The notes beneath the pieces were generated by a model, which was given only the letters and a program-made list of their open reading frames with translations, was not told where the DNA came from and made no database searches. From positions 2,564,001 to 2,628,000 of the forward strand of contig OY282368.1 in NCBI GenBank assembly GCA_958295725.1: a stretch of DNA of 64,000 nt, given 5' to 3'. A program made the position numbers and the translations under genes. The DNA is from an uncultured Alphaproteobacteria bacterium. Its GTDB lineage: Bacteria; Pseudomonadota; Alphaproteobacteria; UBA2966. The number at the start of each line of letters is the position of its first letter. Position 1 is the first letter of the stretch. Shown here one piece after another: positions 1 to 7,544 of this stretch.

Positions 1-1154
1 GCCGGGGCGACAAACCCTACCCGTTCTTTTCCGGTGAGTTCCGCCTGATTCCGACCGACGTCGACCCGGGCGAACTGGTCATGAGCCACATGTCGCCGAA
101 CTTCGACCGCACGGGGTTCCAGCAGGACATCAACGTGGTCATTCCCATCGAGCGTATGCGCGAGCTCGAGGCCGAGGGCGCCGTCGGGTCGGTGGCGAAG
201 TTCCACTACGCCTTCATGGGCGGGAGCAGTCCCCAGGACATGGAGCCCCACGTGCCGGAGCTGGCCCGACTGTTGCGCGGCGACGAGGTCGACACGGTGC
301 TGATGTGTCCCGTGTGACCTCGCTGTACGCGCGCCGTCGGCGCGCTCGGCCACTATCTGGAGCGCGAGGGGATCGCCACGGCGAGCATCAGCCTGATCCG
401 TTTTCAGACGGAAAGGATGAGGCCGCCGCGGGCACTGTGGGTGCCGTTCGAGTTGGGGCGTCCCTTCGGCGCGCCGAACGATCCGGAGTTCCAGACCCGG
501 GTGTTGAAGGCGCTGCTCGGGACGCTGGAAGCGGAGAGCGGCCCGGTCCTGGCGGACTTCGATGAGGACGCGCCGTTGTCGGCCGATGCCGACGACGACG
601 GGGAGGGCTGGGCCTGCCCGATCGAGCTCAAGGCCCCGCCGCCGCGGACGGAGGGCGACGCCGCCGCCCTGGAGCAGGCGCTGTTGCGCGAGATCGGCCA
701 GCTTCGTCCGTGGTACGAACTGTCGGTCGAGCGGCGCGGACGCACGACCGTCGGCGTCAGCCCCCTCGATATCGAGGGCAACGCCCGCTACGTCACGGCG
801 TTCCTCGGCGATGCGTGGCCCGAGTCCCCGTCGGAAGACATGGACGCCGCCGTGGCCCTCAAGCATGCCTTCGAGGACATGCGCGCCTGGTATTTCGAGG
901 CCGTCGCCGCGCAACCGGGACGGGCAGCGGGGACCTCGACCCAGGTCGTCGACTGGTTCTGGAACGAAACGACCGCCGGCGCCGTGCTCAGGAAGCTCGA
1001 CGAGGTCTGCCGCGGGAGCGACGACGAGGTGATGCAGGCCCTGGGCGGGTTCCTGCTCCTCCCCCGCCGCGTGACGGGTTCGGTCGGCGACGGGTCGGAC
1101 GGCCGCCTGAATTCGGAGTACGGGAACAACCCGGCGATCATGGCGGCGGAATGA
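1..1154 (+). CDS. Glycine/sarcosine/betaine/D-proline reductase-type selenoprotein B (PrdB/GrdB-like), 5' partial, with in-frame Sec UGA
   Basis: The gene enters from the left edge in the frame beginning at base 3. It reads VDTVLMCPV, meets TGA at 315-317, and continues without a frame change as PRCTRAVGALGHYLEREG to a TGA at 1152-1154. Sequence on both sides of the UGA matches the selenoprotein B family of glycine/betaine/sarcosine/D-proline reductases. The UGA falls at the family's redox selenocysteine, giving a CxxU motif (Cys-Pro-Val-Sec) and a further Cys three residues on. After it come the family-typical PPRALWVPFELGRPFG stretch and an acidic tail. In clostridia these proteins reductively cleave amino-acid C-N bonds. 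The substrate in aerobic proteobacteria is not established, so I assign only the family. A hairpin directly after the UGA supports Sec insertion. selA, selB, selC and selD are not in this window. The alternative, a nonsense mutation, is disfavoured by intact coding on both sides. Confidence 0.85.
318..345 (+). promoter_or_regulatory. Predicted bacterial SECIS element
   Basis: Eleven bases after the in-frame TGA (315-317) lies a 7-bp all-G/C stem, GCGCGCC (329-335) pairing with GGCGCGC (339-345), closed by a three-base GTC loop (336-338). Bacterial SECIS elements are short hairpins just 3' of the UGA, with a G-U-containing apical loop placed about 16-37 nt downstream. Here the loop begins 19 nt after the UGA. 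Position, stem and loop all fit, but the functional call is inference. Confidence 0.7.
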
Positions 1155-1246: not shown

Positions 1247-1618
1247 ATGCCGATCGTCAGGGTGCAGATTCCGGAAGGATACTCGAACGAGGTCAAGGAC
1301 CGGGTCGCGAACGGGCTTCGCGACGCCATCAACGGGTCCATCGACCCCGGCCAGAACGACCGCTTCCCCGAGACGCGCAAGTGGATATATCCGGCGATCA
1401 CGGAGGCCTACGGCGAACTGGGCAAGGGCCTGCCGACGGTGACCATCGACACGCGGCCGGGGCGGACGCGGGAACAGAAGGACCTCTGCGCCAAGCTGAT
1501 CTGCGACCTCTTCGAGGAGGTCATGGGGACGCGCGACGTCTACGTCCTGCTGCGCACCACGGAGGCGGGCGACCACCTCGCCGGCGGGACGGCTCTGCCC
1601 GAGTGGAAGCCGGAATAG
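1247..1618 (+). CDS. 4-oxalocrotonate tautomerase-like protein
   Basis: A 123-residue protein starting Met-Pro-Ile-Val-Arg-Val. Removal of Met exposes Pro as the N-terminus, the general base of the tautomerase superfamily. The length is that of the fused or longer members (two beta-alpha-beta halves) rather than the 62-residue classical enzyme. Such enzymes move a proton between keto and enol forms of unsaturated or halogenated acids in the cytoplasm. The ATG at 1247 follows a GGAGG-like run (ggggaggcgcgaagg). The gene lies 92 bp after the selenoprotein on the same strand, so they may share a transcript. The substrate cannot be told from sequence. Confidence 0.75.
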   Translation: MPIVRVQIPEGYSNEVKDRVANGLRDAINGSIDPGQNDRFPETRKWIYPAITEAYGELGKGLPTVTIDTRPGRTREQKDLCAKLICDLFEEVMGTRDVYVLLRTTEAGDHLAGGTALPEWKPE

Positions 1619-1651: not shown

Positions 1652-2353
1652 TCAGAAATTCTCGACCCAGGGGCGGAGCTCGATCTCCCAGGCCCAGGCG
1701 CTGCGATCCTGCTTGAGGAAATGCAGATAGCTCCGGGCGATGGCGTCCGGGTCCAACATGCTGTCGGGATTGTCGGGCGGGTCCATCCGCTCGGTCCGGA
1801 GCGGGTTGCGGATACCGCCGTCGATGATGAAATGCCCGACGTGGACGCCTTGGGGGTGGAGTTCCCGCGCCATGCTCTGGGCGAGACCGCGCAGCGCGAA
1901 CTTGCCCATGGCGAACGAGGCGGACTGCACGTAACCCTTGACGCTGGCCGACGCCGCCGTGAACAGGATGGCGCCGTGGCCCTTGGGCGCCATGCGCCGC
2001 GCGGCCGCCTGGGCGACGAGGAACCCGCCGTAGGCCGTGACGAGGATGGCGTTCTTCGTGGCCTCGCGGTCGATCTCGACGAAGGGGCCGCGCACGCGGG
2101 CGCTCGGGTTGTAGACCACGACGTCCGGATCGTTCCCTTCCAGCGCCCCGAACAGCGCGTCCACGTCCTCCGGGGAGGTCGCGTCGCACGCGTGGGCCGT
2201 GGCGCCGGTTTCGGAGCAGAGTCCGGAGAGGTCGTCGATGCTCCGGGCGGCGAGCGACACCGCCATGCCCTCGGACGACAGCAGGCGGGCGAGAGAGGCG
2301 GAGAGACCGGGGCCTACCCCGACGATCAGGGCGTGCTTGTAGGTGGGAACCAT
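1652..2353 (-). CDS. Atypical short-chain dehydrogenase/reductase (catalytic Tyr replaced)
   Basis: A 233-residue protein with an N-terminal Rossmann strand and glycine-rich loop (ALIVGVGPGLSASLARLL, residues about 7-24), then VVYNPSA, where classical SDRs have NNAG. At the active site, the usual Ser...Tyr-x-x-x-Lys reads SASFAMGKFALRG: Lys is kept and the Tyr position is Phe. It therefore belongs to the SDR fold but may have altered or no oxidoreductase activity. An upstream in-frame extension is possible, but the ATG at 2353 places the Rossmann strand at the N-terminus and has GAGG about 11 bases upstream. It converges on the tautomerase gene. Confidence 0.75.
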   Translation of the reverse strand: MVPTYKHALIVGVGPGLSASLARLLSSEGMAVSLAARSIDDLSGLCSETGATAHACDATSPEDVDALFGALEGNDPDVVVYNPSARVRGPFVEIDREATKNAILVTAYGGFLVAQAAARRMAPKGHGAILFTAASASVKGYVQSASFAMGKFALRGLAQSMARELHPQGVHVGHFIIDGGIRNPLRTERMDPPDNPDSMLDPDAIARSYLHFLKQDRSAWAWEIELRPWVENF

Positions 2354-2403
2354 GACGGACGACCTCGTTCGGTTGGCGTTGGAGCGGACACAGTGGCCCC
2401 AAC

Positions 2404-2664
2404 TCATGCCATCCGGGCGCGGGCGCGGCAAGCCCTCTCCTCCGGCGGGCACATGGCCGGGAACCGGGACCTGTCAGGGCCCATCGCTCCCTCCGGTTGA
2501 AGAACCGGAACATAATCCATCGTAAGCGCCCCGCCACCGGGCGCAACGGCGATGGCGCCCTTGGCGCGCGGCGGGTTCCAGCGAATGTCCCGGTTCCGGA
2601 CCAAACGGACATACCCGTCCGGCGTCACTCCGCCCTTCGGCGTCGGCGCCTCGAATTCCGTCAT
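2404..2664 (-). CDS. Small hypothetical protein coupled to the NYN gene
   Basis: An 86-codon frame beginning MTEFEAPTPKGGVTPDGYVR. Its ATG (2664-2662) overlaps the stop of the upstream NYN-domain gene in an ATGA arrangement, suggesting translational coupling. The N-terminal half is polar with GGV and DGYVRL elements; the C-terminus is Arg/Ala-rich and could be spurious coding. I recognise no family. The start overlap is the main reason to take it seriously. High GC makes chance frames of this size common, so confidence is modest. Confidence 0.4.
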   Translation of the reverse strand: MTEFEAPTPKGGVTPDGYVRLVRNRDIRWNPPRAKGAIAVAPGGGALTMDYVPVLQPEGAMGPDRSRFPAMCPPEERACRARARMA

Positions 2665-3305
2665 GGGGCGAGGCGGTACCGCGGTCGAGGGCGATAATCC
2701 CGCTCGTCGAGACATGCGTCGTAGAACGTCCGGTCCATCCGATACCATTCCGCCCCGTCGATGCCACGTCTGGCCGTAGCCGCCGTGCTAACGGGATAAG
2801 CGGACACGACCTTGATCCACCTGCCGGTGTCGCGCGCAATGTCCTTGACCTCCTTGACGACCTCGGCCAAGTCCTGATCCTGGCTGAAGATAACCGCGAC
2901 ATCCAATTGGCCCATACGAGCCAGCCTAACGACATCCAGGCCGAGGCGCAGGTCTATGCCCTTCTCCTGCGGGATATATTTCGTCCCGACGGACCCGTCG
3001 GGCAGTTCAACATCGTACGGTTGATAGCGAATCCGTCTGCTTTCGACGACTATGCCCGCGCGGCGCATGGCAAGAAGCCGGTTGGCCCAGTAGCCGTGCC
3101 ACATCTCGCTGTGCCGACGGGCCGGTGTGCCCGTGTAGAACCGGACCCCGCGACCCTCCCAACCTTTGCGTGCGCAGACTGCCCCGAACAGCTCCTTCGG
3201 ATCATAGTTGGGGTGATGGTGCCCGAAGGCCTCCTTCGCATGGCGATAGAGGTTCTGCCCGTCGAAGAACGCAATAGCGCGCTTGACGGCGGGTTCGTCA
3301 ACCAT
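2661..3305 (-). CDS. NYN-domain (PIN-like, DUF88/LabA family) protein
   Basis: A 214-residue protein. The N-terminus reads AIAFFDGQNLYRHAKEAF, the hallmark first acidic motif of NYN domains. Mid-protein EKGIDLRLGLDVVRLA and late FSQDQDLAEVVKEV supply the other conserved Asp residues expected to bind a divalent metal. The family are predicted ribonucleases or nucleic-acid-processing enzymes of the PIN-like superfamily. The start at 3305 is preceded by GGGA at suitable spacing and gives a compact domain-only protein. It lies next to integrase and IS remnants, so it may have arrived with mobile DNA. The target RNA is unknown. Confidence 0.8.
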   Translation of the reverse strand: MVDEPAVKRAIAFFDGQNLYRHAKEAFGHHHPNYDPKELFGAVCARKGWEGRGVRFYTGTPARRHSEMWHGYWANRLLAMRRAGIVVESRRIRYQPYDVELPDGSVGTKYIPQEKGIDLRLGLDVVRLARMGQLDVAVIFSQDQDLAEVVKEVKDIARDTGRWIKVVSAYPVSTAATARRGIDGAEWYRMDRTFYDACLDERDYRPRPRYRLAP

Positions 3306-3431
3306 CGCGATCCCATGAACGAATAACCCCTCGGGGGCCGTTTCGGGACGATCTCGATCAATGATCGGAGATCCCGAGCAGGCAAGTCCCGAGGGGAGCA
3401 AGTTCACTCAACCTACGAGAAGCGTTATTCG

Positions 3432-4701: not shown

Positions 4702-7544
4702 TCATGGAACTATCGCGTTGAGAGTCAATAACTCTCCGAGTACATCATCATCGGATATGTCCGCATCCCACCCATAGGCCGCCGCCACGGCGGCGTCGAG
4801 ACTATCGTGCGCGTCGGCGAGCCATCGCGGGCGGGCGTTGTAGAGGGCGGTCAGGGTGCGGGTCTTGAGCGCCTTCGCCACCGTCTCGTCGCGGGGGACG
4901 GGGCGCTTGGGATAGCCAGGAACCGGCTCGTCCACCCATTCCACCCATTCGGGCGGATTGAGCCAGCGGTCGCGGAGCTCGACGAGTCGCCGCGCGGCTT
5001 CGGCGACGGCGACGGCGCGGGGATCGTCAGCGTAGTCGGCGGCGGGAATGTCGGGCGAGAGCCCTTCGGGGAAGGGGAAGGTCTCGAAGGTGGTGGTGGG
5101 GGTGTAGCGCGGATCGTTGCCCTTACCGAGCCACGTTCCGAGCCGCAGCGACCACGCCTCGTGGAACCTGCTGTGGAGAATGCCGAAGGTCGTATCGTCG
5201 TCGCGCACGATGACGGTCAAGGCGGAGTCGGGAGAAATCCGGGAATCGCACCAGACGAACAGCCGATGCTTAGCGACGCGAGGCGTGGCGATGTAGCGGT
5301 CGATCCCGTCCAAAACTTCGCGGAACTCCGCCACGAAACGGCGATGCCTCCACCAAGCGGTCCGGAGCGCCACCACCGGATTCCGCGACCGCGCCGGCTT
5401 GACGTGTTCCGCGAGATGCGCGAATGGCGCCTCGTAAAGCGCGGCCTCGGCCTCGCCCATTTCGTGGCCAAAGTCGACGATCCATTTATCGAGTGAACGG
5501 CGGGTTACGTCCAGACCGTTTATCCACGGCTTGAGTACATCGCTATTGAGCCGCCCGTTCGGGTTGGCGGGCAGGCGAAGCCACTCGCGCGCTAACTCGC
5601 CGGAAATATCGAACGCGCCTCCCTTTTCCCCGCACCGGAAGCACGCGTCCTGATTCGCTCGCAACCGGCGTGCCTGCGAACCCAGGGCCCGCGACGAAGA
5701 CGCCGCTAGGTCCGCGGAAATACCCGGTGCTGGCATCCCGTTCAGACGAGGTTTGGAAGCCTCGCCGTGACCGGCGAAACACACCAGAGATACCCGGACG
5801 GCAGCGCCGTCCACGACCCATGGTTCGTCAGACCATGCATCGAAAATGCAGCCGTGTTCGACGATCCAGTCGAGCACCGTGCGGCTGCGCCCGCCCCGGA
5901 TCGAGTTCGTCGCCACCAAGCCGGCGCGAGGGTGCCTTGGGCTACCAGCCGTCCCGCCTTGTGAAACCAGTAGCACACGAGATCCGCCGCACCGGGAACG
6001 CGATCCTCGTAAACCCTATGCAAGTCGTTCGTATAGGCGTCTCCGAGCGCCGACCGTATGCGCGAGCTGCCCAGGAACGGCGGGTTACCGATCACGACGT
6101 CGGCTTCGGGCCATTCCGGCTCCCCGCCGTCCGCCGTCAGGACCGCGTCGCGACATTCGATGGTCTCCAGAGGCTTCAGGACCGGGTCGTGCGACTCCCG
6201 GAACCCGTTGCGCCGCATCCACTGGATCTCGCCCACCCACACCGACACACGCGCCAGTTCCGCCGCATAGGCGTTGACCTCGATCCCGCGCACATTGGCC
6301 GGACCGACCGCCGGAAACTCCCGCGCGAGGCCCATCGCCTCGGCGTCCAACTGGACCCGGTGCTCCAGGTCCTTCAATGCGTGCAACGCCAGATAGAGGA
6401 AGTTCCCCGAACCGCACGCCGGATCGAGCACGACGAAGCCGCGCAGCCGTTCGAGAAACGCGCGGAAGCGCCGTTCGGCCTCGCCCCGCCGCCGCGTCCG
6501 CACCGCCCCCGGCCCGGCCGCCTCCGCCCGTTCGAGACCGGCGGCGATCTCCGCCTTCACCGCCTCCCACTCCGCCAGAAGCGGGCGGACGATCACCGGC
6601 TCCACGATCCGCATGATCTTGTCGCGGTCCGTGTAGTGCGCCCCGAGTTGCGAGCGCTTGTCCGGGTCCAGACCGCGCTCGAACAGCGTGCCCAGGATCG
6701 ACGGATCGATCTCCGACCAGTCGAGCGCCGCCGCCGCGAGCGCCGTCTCGATCTCTTCCTTCCCCAACGGCAACGCCGCGTCGTCGTCGAACAGACCGCC
6801 GTTGAACCGCGCCACAACCTCGAACCCCACGTCTCCGCCCCCGGACATCGCCCCGAACAGGCGGCCCGCCAACTCCGCGAAGCCTTCGGGCCGGCGCCGC
6901 GCGTGTTCGAGCATCCGCGTGAACATGCTGTCGGGCAGCAGGCCCACGTCCTCCGCGAACATGCAGAACACCAGACGGTTCACGAAGTGCGCCACCGCGC
7001 GCGCCTCGTGGCCGCGCCCGCGCAGCGACTGCGCCAGCGCCGCGAACGCCGATGCCGCCCGCTCCGTCAGCGCCTGCCGGCTCTCCCCCGGACGCAGCCG
7101 CTCCGGGTCCGACATCGCCCATTTGAGCTTGTCCCGTGCCGCCGCCTCCGCCAGGTCCTCCAGCGCGAACTCGTGGGTCGCGCTCACGCTGTTGGTCCAG
7201 TTGGTGCGGATGCGGAACCGCGCCATGTCCGAGACGATCAGCAGCGGCGGGTTCTCCAGCGCCAGCGCGTATTGCCGCAGCTGGTTGAACGCCGCGTCGA
7301 GGTCGGCGCGCCGGCCCTTGTACTCCCAGGCGAAGCAGCCCCGTTTCCACACGTCGGCCCAGCCCTCGCCGCCCGTGTCCTTGCGCGCCCCGCGCTCGAA
7401 ACAATAGGTCTCGCCCGCCGGGTCGGCTTCGGCCGGCGTCGGCTCTCCCAGCAGCCGGCACAGGTCGATGAAGTGCTCCTGACTCCCGGAGCGCTCCTTC
7501 AACGCCGACGCCCGCCACTTGGCGATGAACGCCCCCGGCGTCAT
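4702..7544 (-). pseudogene. MmeI-like (type IIL) restriction-modification enzyme, frameshifted
   Basis: Two overlapping frames (7544 to 5742 and 5976 to 4702) together make one protein of about 947 residues, the usual size for MmeI-like fused endonuclease-methyltransferases. In order: an N-terminal domain with ADVWKRGCFAWEYKGRRADL, a D...E-x-K nuclease motif; a helical linker; motif I DPACGSGNFL and motif IV NPPF of an N6-adenine methyltransferase; then a target-recognition domain and C-terminal region (LREWLRLPANPNGR-like, FETFPFPEGLSP). The frames switch near 5925-5935 between GTLA and RAGLVATNSIRGG, consistent with loss of one base. As sequenced, the methyltransferase is separated from its recognition domain, so it should be inactive unless this is a sequencing error. 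It probably shares a transcript with the following membrane-protein gene. Confidence 0.8.

Follow-up and report, generated by a model that had tools for sequence, protein, structure and literature searches.

The stretch of DNA analysed here (the window) is 64,000 nucleotides long, corresponds to G000:C1:2564001-2628000 in genome coordinates and comes from an uncultured alphaproteobacterium. It opens inside a gene predicted to encode a selenoprotein related to the PrdB and GrdB subunits of proline and glycine reductases (Table 1). Positions 3-1151 form a single reading frame, the sole interruption of which is the TGA at 315-317, giving the product ...DTVLMCPV-U-PRCTRAVGALGHYL... The gene begins at an ATG 145 bases upstream of the first base of the window (L018:7857), and the full protein has 432 amino acids with selenocysteine (Sec) at codon 154. 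A preliminary description of this DNA, which placed the gene at 3-1154, was correct as to the frame, although not as to the start of the gene.

Table 1. Features of the selenoprotein locus, in window coordinates.
Feature	Position	Strand	Remarks
PrdB/GrdB-superfamily selenoprotein gene, 3' part	3..1154	+	residues 50-432; PF07355 E 8.7e-07; full-length TIGR04483 108 bits
UGA predicted to be read as Sec154	315..317	+	67 TGA / 3 Cys / 0 other; selA, selB, selD and tRNA-Sec in genome
Cys151 codon (Cys three before Sec)	306..308	+	lineage-specific; 8/52 in family
Cys157 codon, invariant Cys of UxxC	324..326	+	52/52 conserved; resolving role inferred
SECIS-type hairpin, in-frame	329..345	+	7-bp stem, loop GUC; 14-30 nt after U of UGA
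C-terminal helical domain, residues 253-407	612..1076	+	AlphaFold; absent from PrdB and short paralogue clade
Stop codon TGA of selenoprotein gene	1152-1154	+	
Fused 4-oxalocrotonate-tautomerase-like protein, neighbour	1247..1618	+	PF01361 E 3e-08
Short-chain dehydrogenase/reductase (SDR), neighbour	1652..2452	-	PF00106 E 6e-23

Beyond the two neighbouring genes lies a region of different character. A gene for an NYN-domain protein (2661-3407, minus strand) is found near a C-terminal fragment of a phage-type integrase (PF00589; 3488-3856, plus strand), and the latter is close to a type IIG (MmeI-like) restriction-modification enzyme (4702-7544, minus strand) that appears to be split into two overlapping frames. 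Positions 5742-7544 match the N-terminal and methyltransferase part of a PADLOC model, the remainder of which is matched by 4702-5976; the gene is therefore either frameshifted or affected by an assembly indel. The setting of the integrase fragment suggests that a decayed mobile island has its edge here, immediately downstream of the selenoprotein cluster.

Under translation table 11 the gene ends at TGA 315-317, and on this basis the codon might be taken as an ordinary stop, in which case the protein would have 153 residues and what follows would be another gene or the decayed remains of one. Such a reading is very unlikely. Among 70 distinct homologues spanning the site, TGA is present in 67 and a cysteine codon, TGC or TGT, in three (L080, L081, L083), with no other codon found, which is the alternation of Sec and Cys that the preliminary description had proposed to look for; in the tree, these Cys forms cluster as a single clade nested within the Sec forms. 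The frame, and purifying selection with it, runs on for 278 codons after the TGA. In comparisons of the gene with four close relatives, the rate of difference at third codon positions is approximately 2 to 6 times that at second positions, before the TGA as well as after it. For one relative (L085), the differences at codon positions 1/2/3 are 0.085/0.065/0.418 upstream and 0.137/0.086/0.442 downstream of the UGA. The third-position excess downstream points to the same protein-level selection after the TGA as before it, and bears out the original observation that one frame stays coding on both sides.

The UGA is followed by a SECIS-type hairpin. Over 65 distinct sequences aligned at the register of 14-30 nt, 88% of the stem cells are paired, and the loop is GUN or GGG in all (GTG 46, GTC 10, GTT 6, GGG 3). 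Compensatory pair types occur at positions 17/27 (CG 53, GC 8, AT 3, TG 1) and 14/30 (GC 48, TA 6, CG 5, AT 2). Under synonymous-codon resampling the hairpin has a mean z of -1.77 in Sec genes; control offsets give values between -0.50 and +0.45. It is absent from the Cys homologues, with a mean z of +0.36 in the three Cys genes. Folding of single sequences against dinucleotide shuffles did not give a significant hairpin; these shuffles were set aside, and the signal comes from comparing the genes with one another and from the control that preserves codons.

The machinery needed to decode the UGA is complete in the genome. All four genes proposed for a search were found: selA (564 bits), selB (417 bits) and selD (292 bits), each scoring above its cut-off, and selC, encoding tRNA-Sec, which lies just after selB. 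In a survey of 385 alphaproteobacterial genomes, selA accompanies the TGA form in 35 of 38 genomes and Cys-only forms in 0 of 12 (Fisher p 1.6e-31, a value that overstates independence as the genomes are related to one another). Of the three TGA-form genomes without selA, G025 is 77% complete and G276 has the gene on a contig of 6 kb; the third is G325. The selenoprotein gene has selA, selB or selD nearby, at a distance of up to about 6 kb, in 13 of the loci fetched. The shared TGA, the hairpin, the Sec machinery and the co-occurrence with selA thus uphold the initial claim, and Sec decoding of UGA 315-317 by a genuine selenoprotein gene is strongly supported by comparative sequence evidence. 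A true stop and a sequencing error were both excluded, given the 67 homologues, the constraint on the coding sequence to either side of the TGA and the SECIS hairpin.

The sel genes have some features of their own. At L021 the tRNA-Sec occupies positions 6610-6704 and selB ends at 6722, so that the tRNA starts 17 bases past the selB stop; in other alphaproteobacteria tRNA-Sec has been found nested in selB (PMC8124441), which is not the arrangement here. Six loci with selD near the PrdB-like gene (L094, L102, L103, L105, L107 and L112) have a long SelD protein of about 740-810 residues, with a putative N-terminal NADH-dehydrogenase-like domain named by sequence reading.

The redox centre of the window protein reads Sec154-Pro-Arg-Cys157. 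Cys157 is kept in all 52 long homologues examined, whereas Cys151 is present in only eight. As the upstream cysteine is not a feature of the family, the CxxUxxC motif put forward in the preliminary description was dropped, both as a conserved and as a functional motif; instead, the conserved centre, as judged from the alignment, is PVUPxCTR, and a UxxC centre is strongly supported. Residues that are invariant or nearly so in the 52 long proteins are R63, H78, S80, D84, R85, G111, H117 and P152 on the N-terminal side and, from the centre on, U/C154, P155, C157, T158, E169, G172, R192, G201, P203, Q213, E279 and T372. Those near the redox centre are R63, H78, D84, R85, H117, Cys157 and E169.

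Sequence profiles place the protein in the PrdB/GrdB superfamily, as had been suggested from the window alone. The part encoded in the window scores 29 bits against PF07355 (GRDB; gathering cut-off 22), and a full-length relative with 88% identity scores 40.9 bits. The full-length protein gives 108.4 bits against the PrdB equivalog model TIGR04483, covering 20-219 of its 238 positions and thus nearly the whole model, although the cut-off is 300. GrdB-type models TIGR01917, NF040794 and NF040795 give 38-51 bits against cut-offs of 602-800, and the subfamily model TIGR01918 gives 44.7 against 65.45. A tree that included as references four PrdB proteins, from annotated or Stickland-organism plasmid records, resolved three groups: a long group with the window gene (58 rows, support 100/99), a short alphaproteobacterial group (94/94) and PrdB (100/100). 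The members of the long group, a branch common in alphaproteobacteria, come from Alphaproteobacteria, several Chloroflexota and one Burkholderiaceae MAG. The tree strongly supports its separation as a clade from authentic PrdB. At the centre, members of this clade usually have Sec and rarely Cys. The genome itself has three long members, including a tandem pair at C1:895302-897576, and one short member (C1:1964842), all four with the TGA. One contig filed as a Gammaproteobacteria MAG (L023) carries a gene 86% identical to that of the window, falling inside the same genus clade; this contig is probably mis-binned.

The likeness to PrdB is considerable. Homology extends over residues 28-225, Sec is at the same position within a UxxC centre, and the SH...D...N...FP and FMGG stretches are conserved in both. 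However, the window protein has UPxCTR in place of the UGTCHR of the PrdB sequences examined, scores far under the equivalog cut-off, belongs to its own clade, occurs without PrdA and carries a C-terminal helical domain of 155 residues. GrdB, GrdF and GrdH (PF07355) are homologous to it in their C-terminal half and also have Sec in UxxC, but the window protein is without the GrdB N-terminal half, and no GrdE or GrdA was found.

The C-terminal extension of about 155 residues is strongly supported as an extra domain and is predicted to be helical. Residues 253-407, when modelled alone with AlphaFold, form six helices with good confidence (pLDDT 84.5, pTM 0.82). No Pfam family matched this segment, and comparison with the PDB gave no significant fold; the best Foldseek E value was 2.2, and the best VIA-align Z of 4.8, to 14-3-3, is at background level for helical models. 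The missing PDB match does not show that the predicted fold is new. The full-length model is of moderate quality (pLDDT 67.6), with an N-terminal part that appears to be alpha/beta and Rossmann-like. A fold search with it returned only generic Rossmann-like matches (best Z 8.1), none of them decisive, and a search of the PDB by sequence gave nothing significant.

D-proline and glycine reductases act with a further subunit, PrdA or GrdE (PF09338). No member of PF09338 was found in the genome of the window or in any of the 385 genomes of the class that were searched. As a positive control, the search recovered prdA from two known prd plasmids, which gives weight to the absence at this level of sensitivity, although a very divergent pyruvoyl partner could have been missed. 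GrdA (PF04723) had no match in the genome, in a search without a positive control. The conclusion that the genome has no recognisable pyruvoyl partner is strongly supported at the level of sequence. That the protein might nevertheless be PrdB, or protein B of a glycine, betaine or sarcosine reductase engaged in Stickland-type reduction, is suggested by the near-complete alignment to the PrdB model and by UxxC at the same position. Against this stand the 108 bits for a PrdB cut-off of 300 and the 38-51 bits for GrdB types with cut-offs of 602-800, the separate clade, the altered residues around the centre and the missing PrdA/GrdE family, and the identification is highly improbable. Identity as a D-proline or glycine reductase was accordingly ruled out by score, tree and missing partner. 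The earlier expectation of a different substrate holds in that the substrate is probably neither D-proline nor glycine.

When 621 ORFs neighbouring the gene in the fetched loci were clustered, the sel genes emerged as the clearest recurrent link; SDRs also recur, at scattered positions. In loci of the genus, the fused tautomerase and the SDR come after the gene, and the tautomerase is found beside it in these loci only. The link to the tautomerase, which had been suggested as possibly processing the product, is thus confined to one genus, and the protein was dropped as a general functional partner. In one relative (L084), aldehyde dehydrogenase and GMC oxidoreductase genes, assigned by Pfam, precede the selenoprotein gene, and L085 has the same cluster members. 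Putative CoA-transferase, 2-hydroxyacid dehydrogenase or GST-like genes, named by sequence reading, recur in a few loci. As the neighbourhood is unconserved beyond the sel genes, it gives little guidance on function; the neighbouring genes fit a catabolic enzyme. Elsewhere, at L019:8150-10631, tandem long selenoprotein genes are directly followed by genes that read as a putative ABC substrate-binding protein, an ATPase and two permeases, and this transporter is a possible clue to the substrate.

The main rival to a reductase that removes a leaving group is a thiol-redox selenoprotein, acting in peroxide, disulfide or methionine-sulfoxide chemistry or in protection, with a thioredoxin-like UxxC and no cleavage of carbon-heteroatom bonds. 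UxxC is the common thiol-redox motif of marine selenoproteins (PMC1088965), the changing neighbourhoods resemble those of a housekeeping redox protein, and there is no pyruvoyl partner. However, the family is that of PrdB and GrdB rather than thioredoxin, the neighbours are often catabolic (SDRs, GMC oxidoreductase, aldehyde dehydrogenase), and the invariant His, Arg and Asp residues suggest a substrate pocket. Such a role appears rather unlikely.

A self-contained Sec/Cys reductase in aerobic catabolism is the most likely function. The chemistry of the superfamily is attack by a selenolate on a carbon bearing a leaving group, as in glycine and proline reductases and perhaps in fluoroacetate reductases. 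It is because of this chemistry, together with the proposal made for FarB (PMC10838667), that removal of a leaving group is the likeliest role. A role in monofluoroacetate reduction has been proposed for the GrdB-like proteins FarB and FarE of Synergistota (PMC10838667). As described, FarB resembles the window protein in being a Sec protein of the GrdB type, and its proposed reaction needs no pyruvoyl chemistry and has a substrate that is not an amino acid (PMC10838667), but it is anaerobic and acts with a GrdE-like subunit, FarE.

In the proposed mechanism, SelB and Sec-tRNA-Sec would decode UGA 315-317 as Sec, directed by the hairpin at 329-345, to give a 432-residue protein in which an N-terminal alpha/beta domain, which shares homology with PrdB and the GrdB C-terminal half, is followed by the helical domain of about 155 residues. 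The protein would act alone. The selenolate of Sec154 would attack a substrate atom, leading to reductive loss of a leaving group through cleavage of a C-N, C-halogen, C-S or C-O bond; Cys157 would then resolve the intermediate as a selenenylsulfide, which cellular thiols may reduce. On present analysis this reductive removal, with Cys157 as the resolving residue, is the most likely reaction. The helical domain may take over the substrate binding performed elsewhere by PrdA or GrdE, and the protein probably helps to break down small organic molecules aerobically instead of serving Stickland fermentation. Taken as a whole, the account of a Sec-decoded 432-residue protein of a distinct clade, serving as a partnerless reductase with a helical substrate domain in aerobic catabolism, is probably correct. 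A broader proposal is more tentative: it is possible that these proteins form a pyruvoyl-independent, single-polypeptide branch of PrdB/GrdB with its own helical substrate domain, cleaving a carbon-heteroatom bond reductively in aerobes, and that they are a main reason why many alphaproteobacteria keep Sec machinery.

The genome encodes heme-copper oxidase subunit I twice, which supports aerobic respiration. The preliminary description had regarded the host as probably aerobic and as unusual for such a protein; the first part agrees with the two oxidase subunits, but the second was overstated, as Sec 'PrdB' genes abound in metagenomes from the surface ocean. Sec 'PrdB' selenoproteins in oxygenated water are thus already known: 42 such genes with UxxC were reported from the Sargasso Sea in 2005 (PMC1088965), the GOS survey of 2008 listed 235 Sec and 110 Cys forms (PMC2398784), and in a later survey 'PrdB' made up 6.4% of selenoprotein genes (PMC9402790). 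The 2005 and 2008 reports make an aerobic setting less surprising. The Sargasso Sea and GOS proteins share with the window protein a Sec UxxC, PF07355, oxygenated surface water and Cys homologues, although the surveys listed them as PrdB; the marine 'PrdB' set probably includes the family of the window gene. A search of the literature for a 'selenoprotein B family' by name found none. In the searchable literature there was no account of a branch separate from PrdB, of its extra helical domain or of the lack of a pyruvoyl partner, and no biochemical work on this clade was found.

Reductive Sec enzymes of the glycine and proline reductase type are known from anaerobic Stickland metabolism, where each is paired with another subunit that usually bears a pyruvoyl group. 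The clade described here keeps the Sec centre but seems to be without the partner; it has an extra domain and occurs here in a genome that has terminal oxidases. If the family is the same, much of the 'PrdB' of the ocean surveys may belong to it. Discovery of its substrate would explain a widespread use of selenium in aerobic bacteria, perhaps one that currently goes under the wrong enzyme name.
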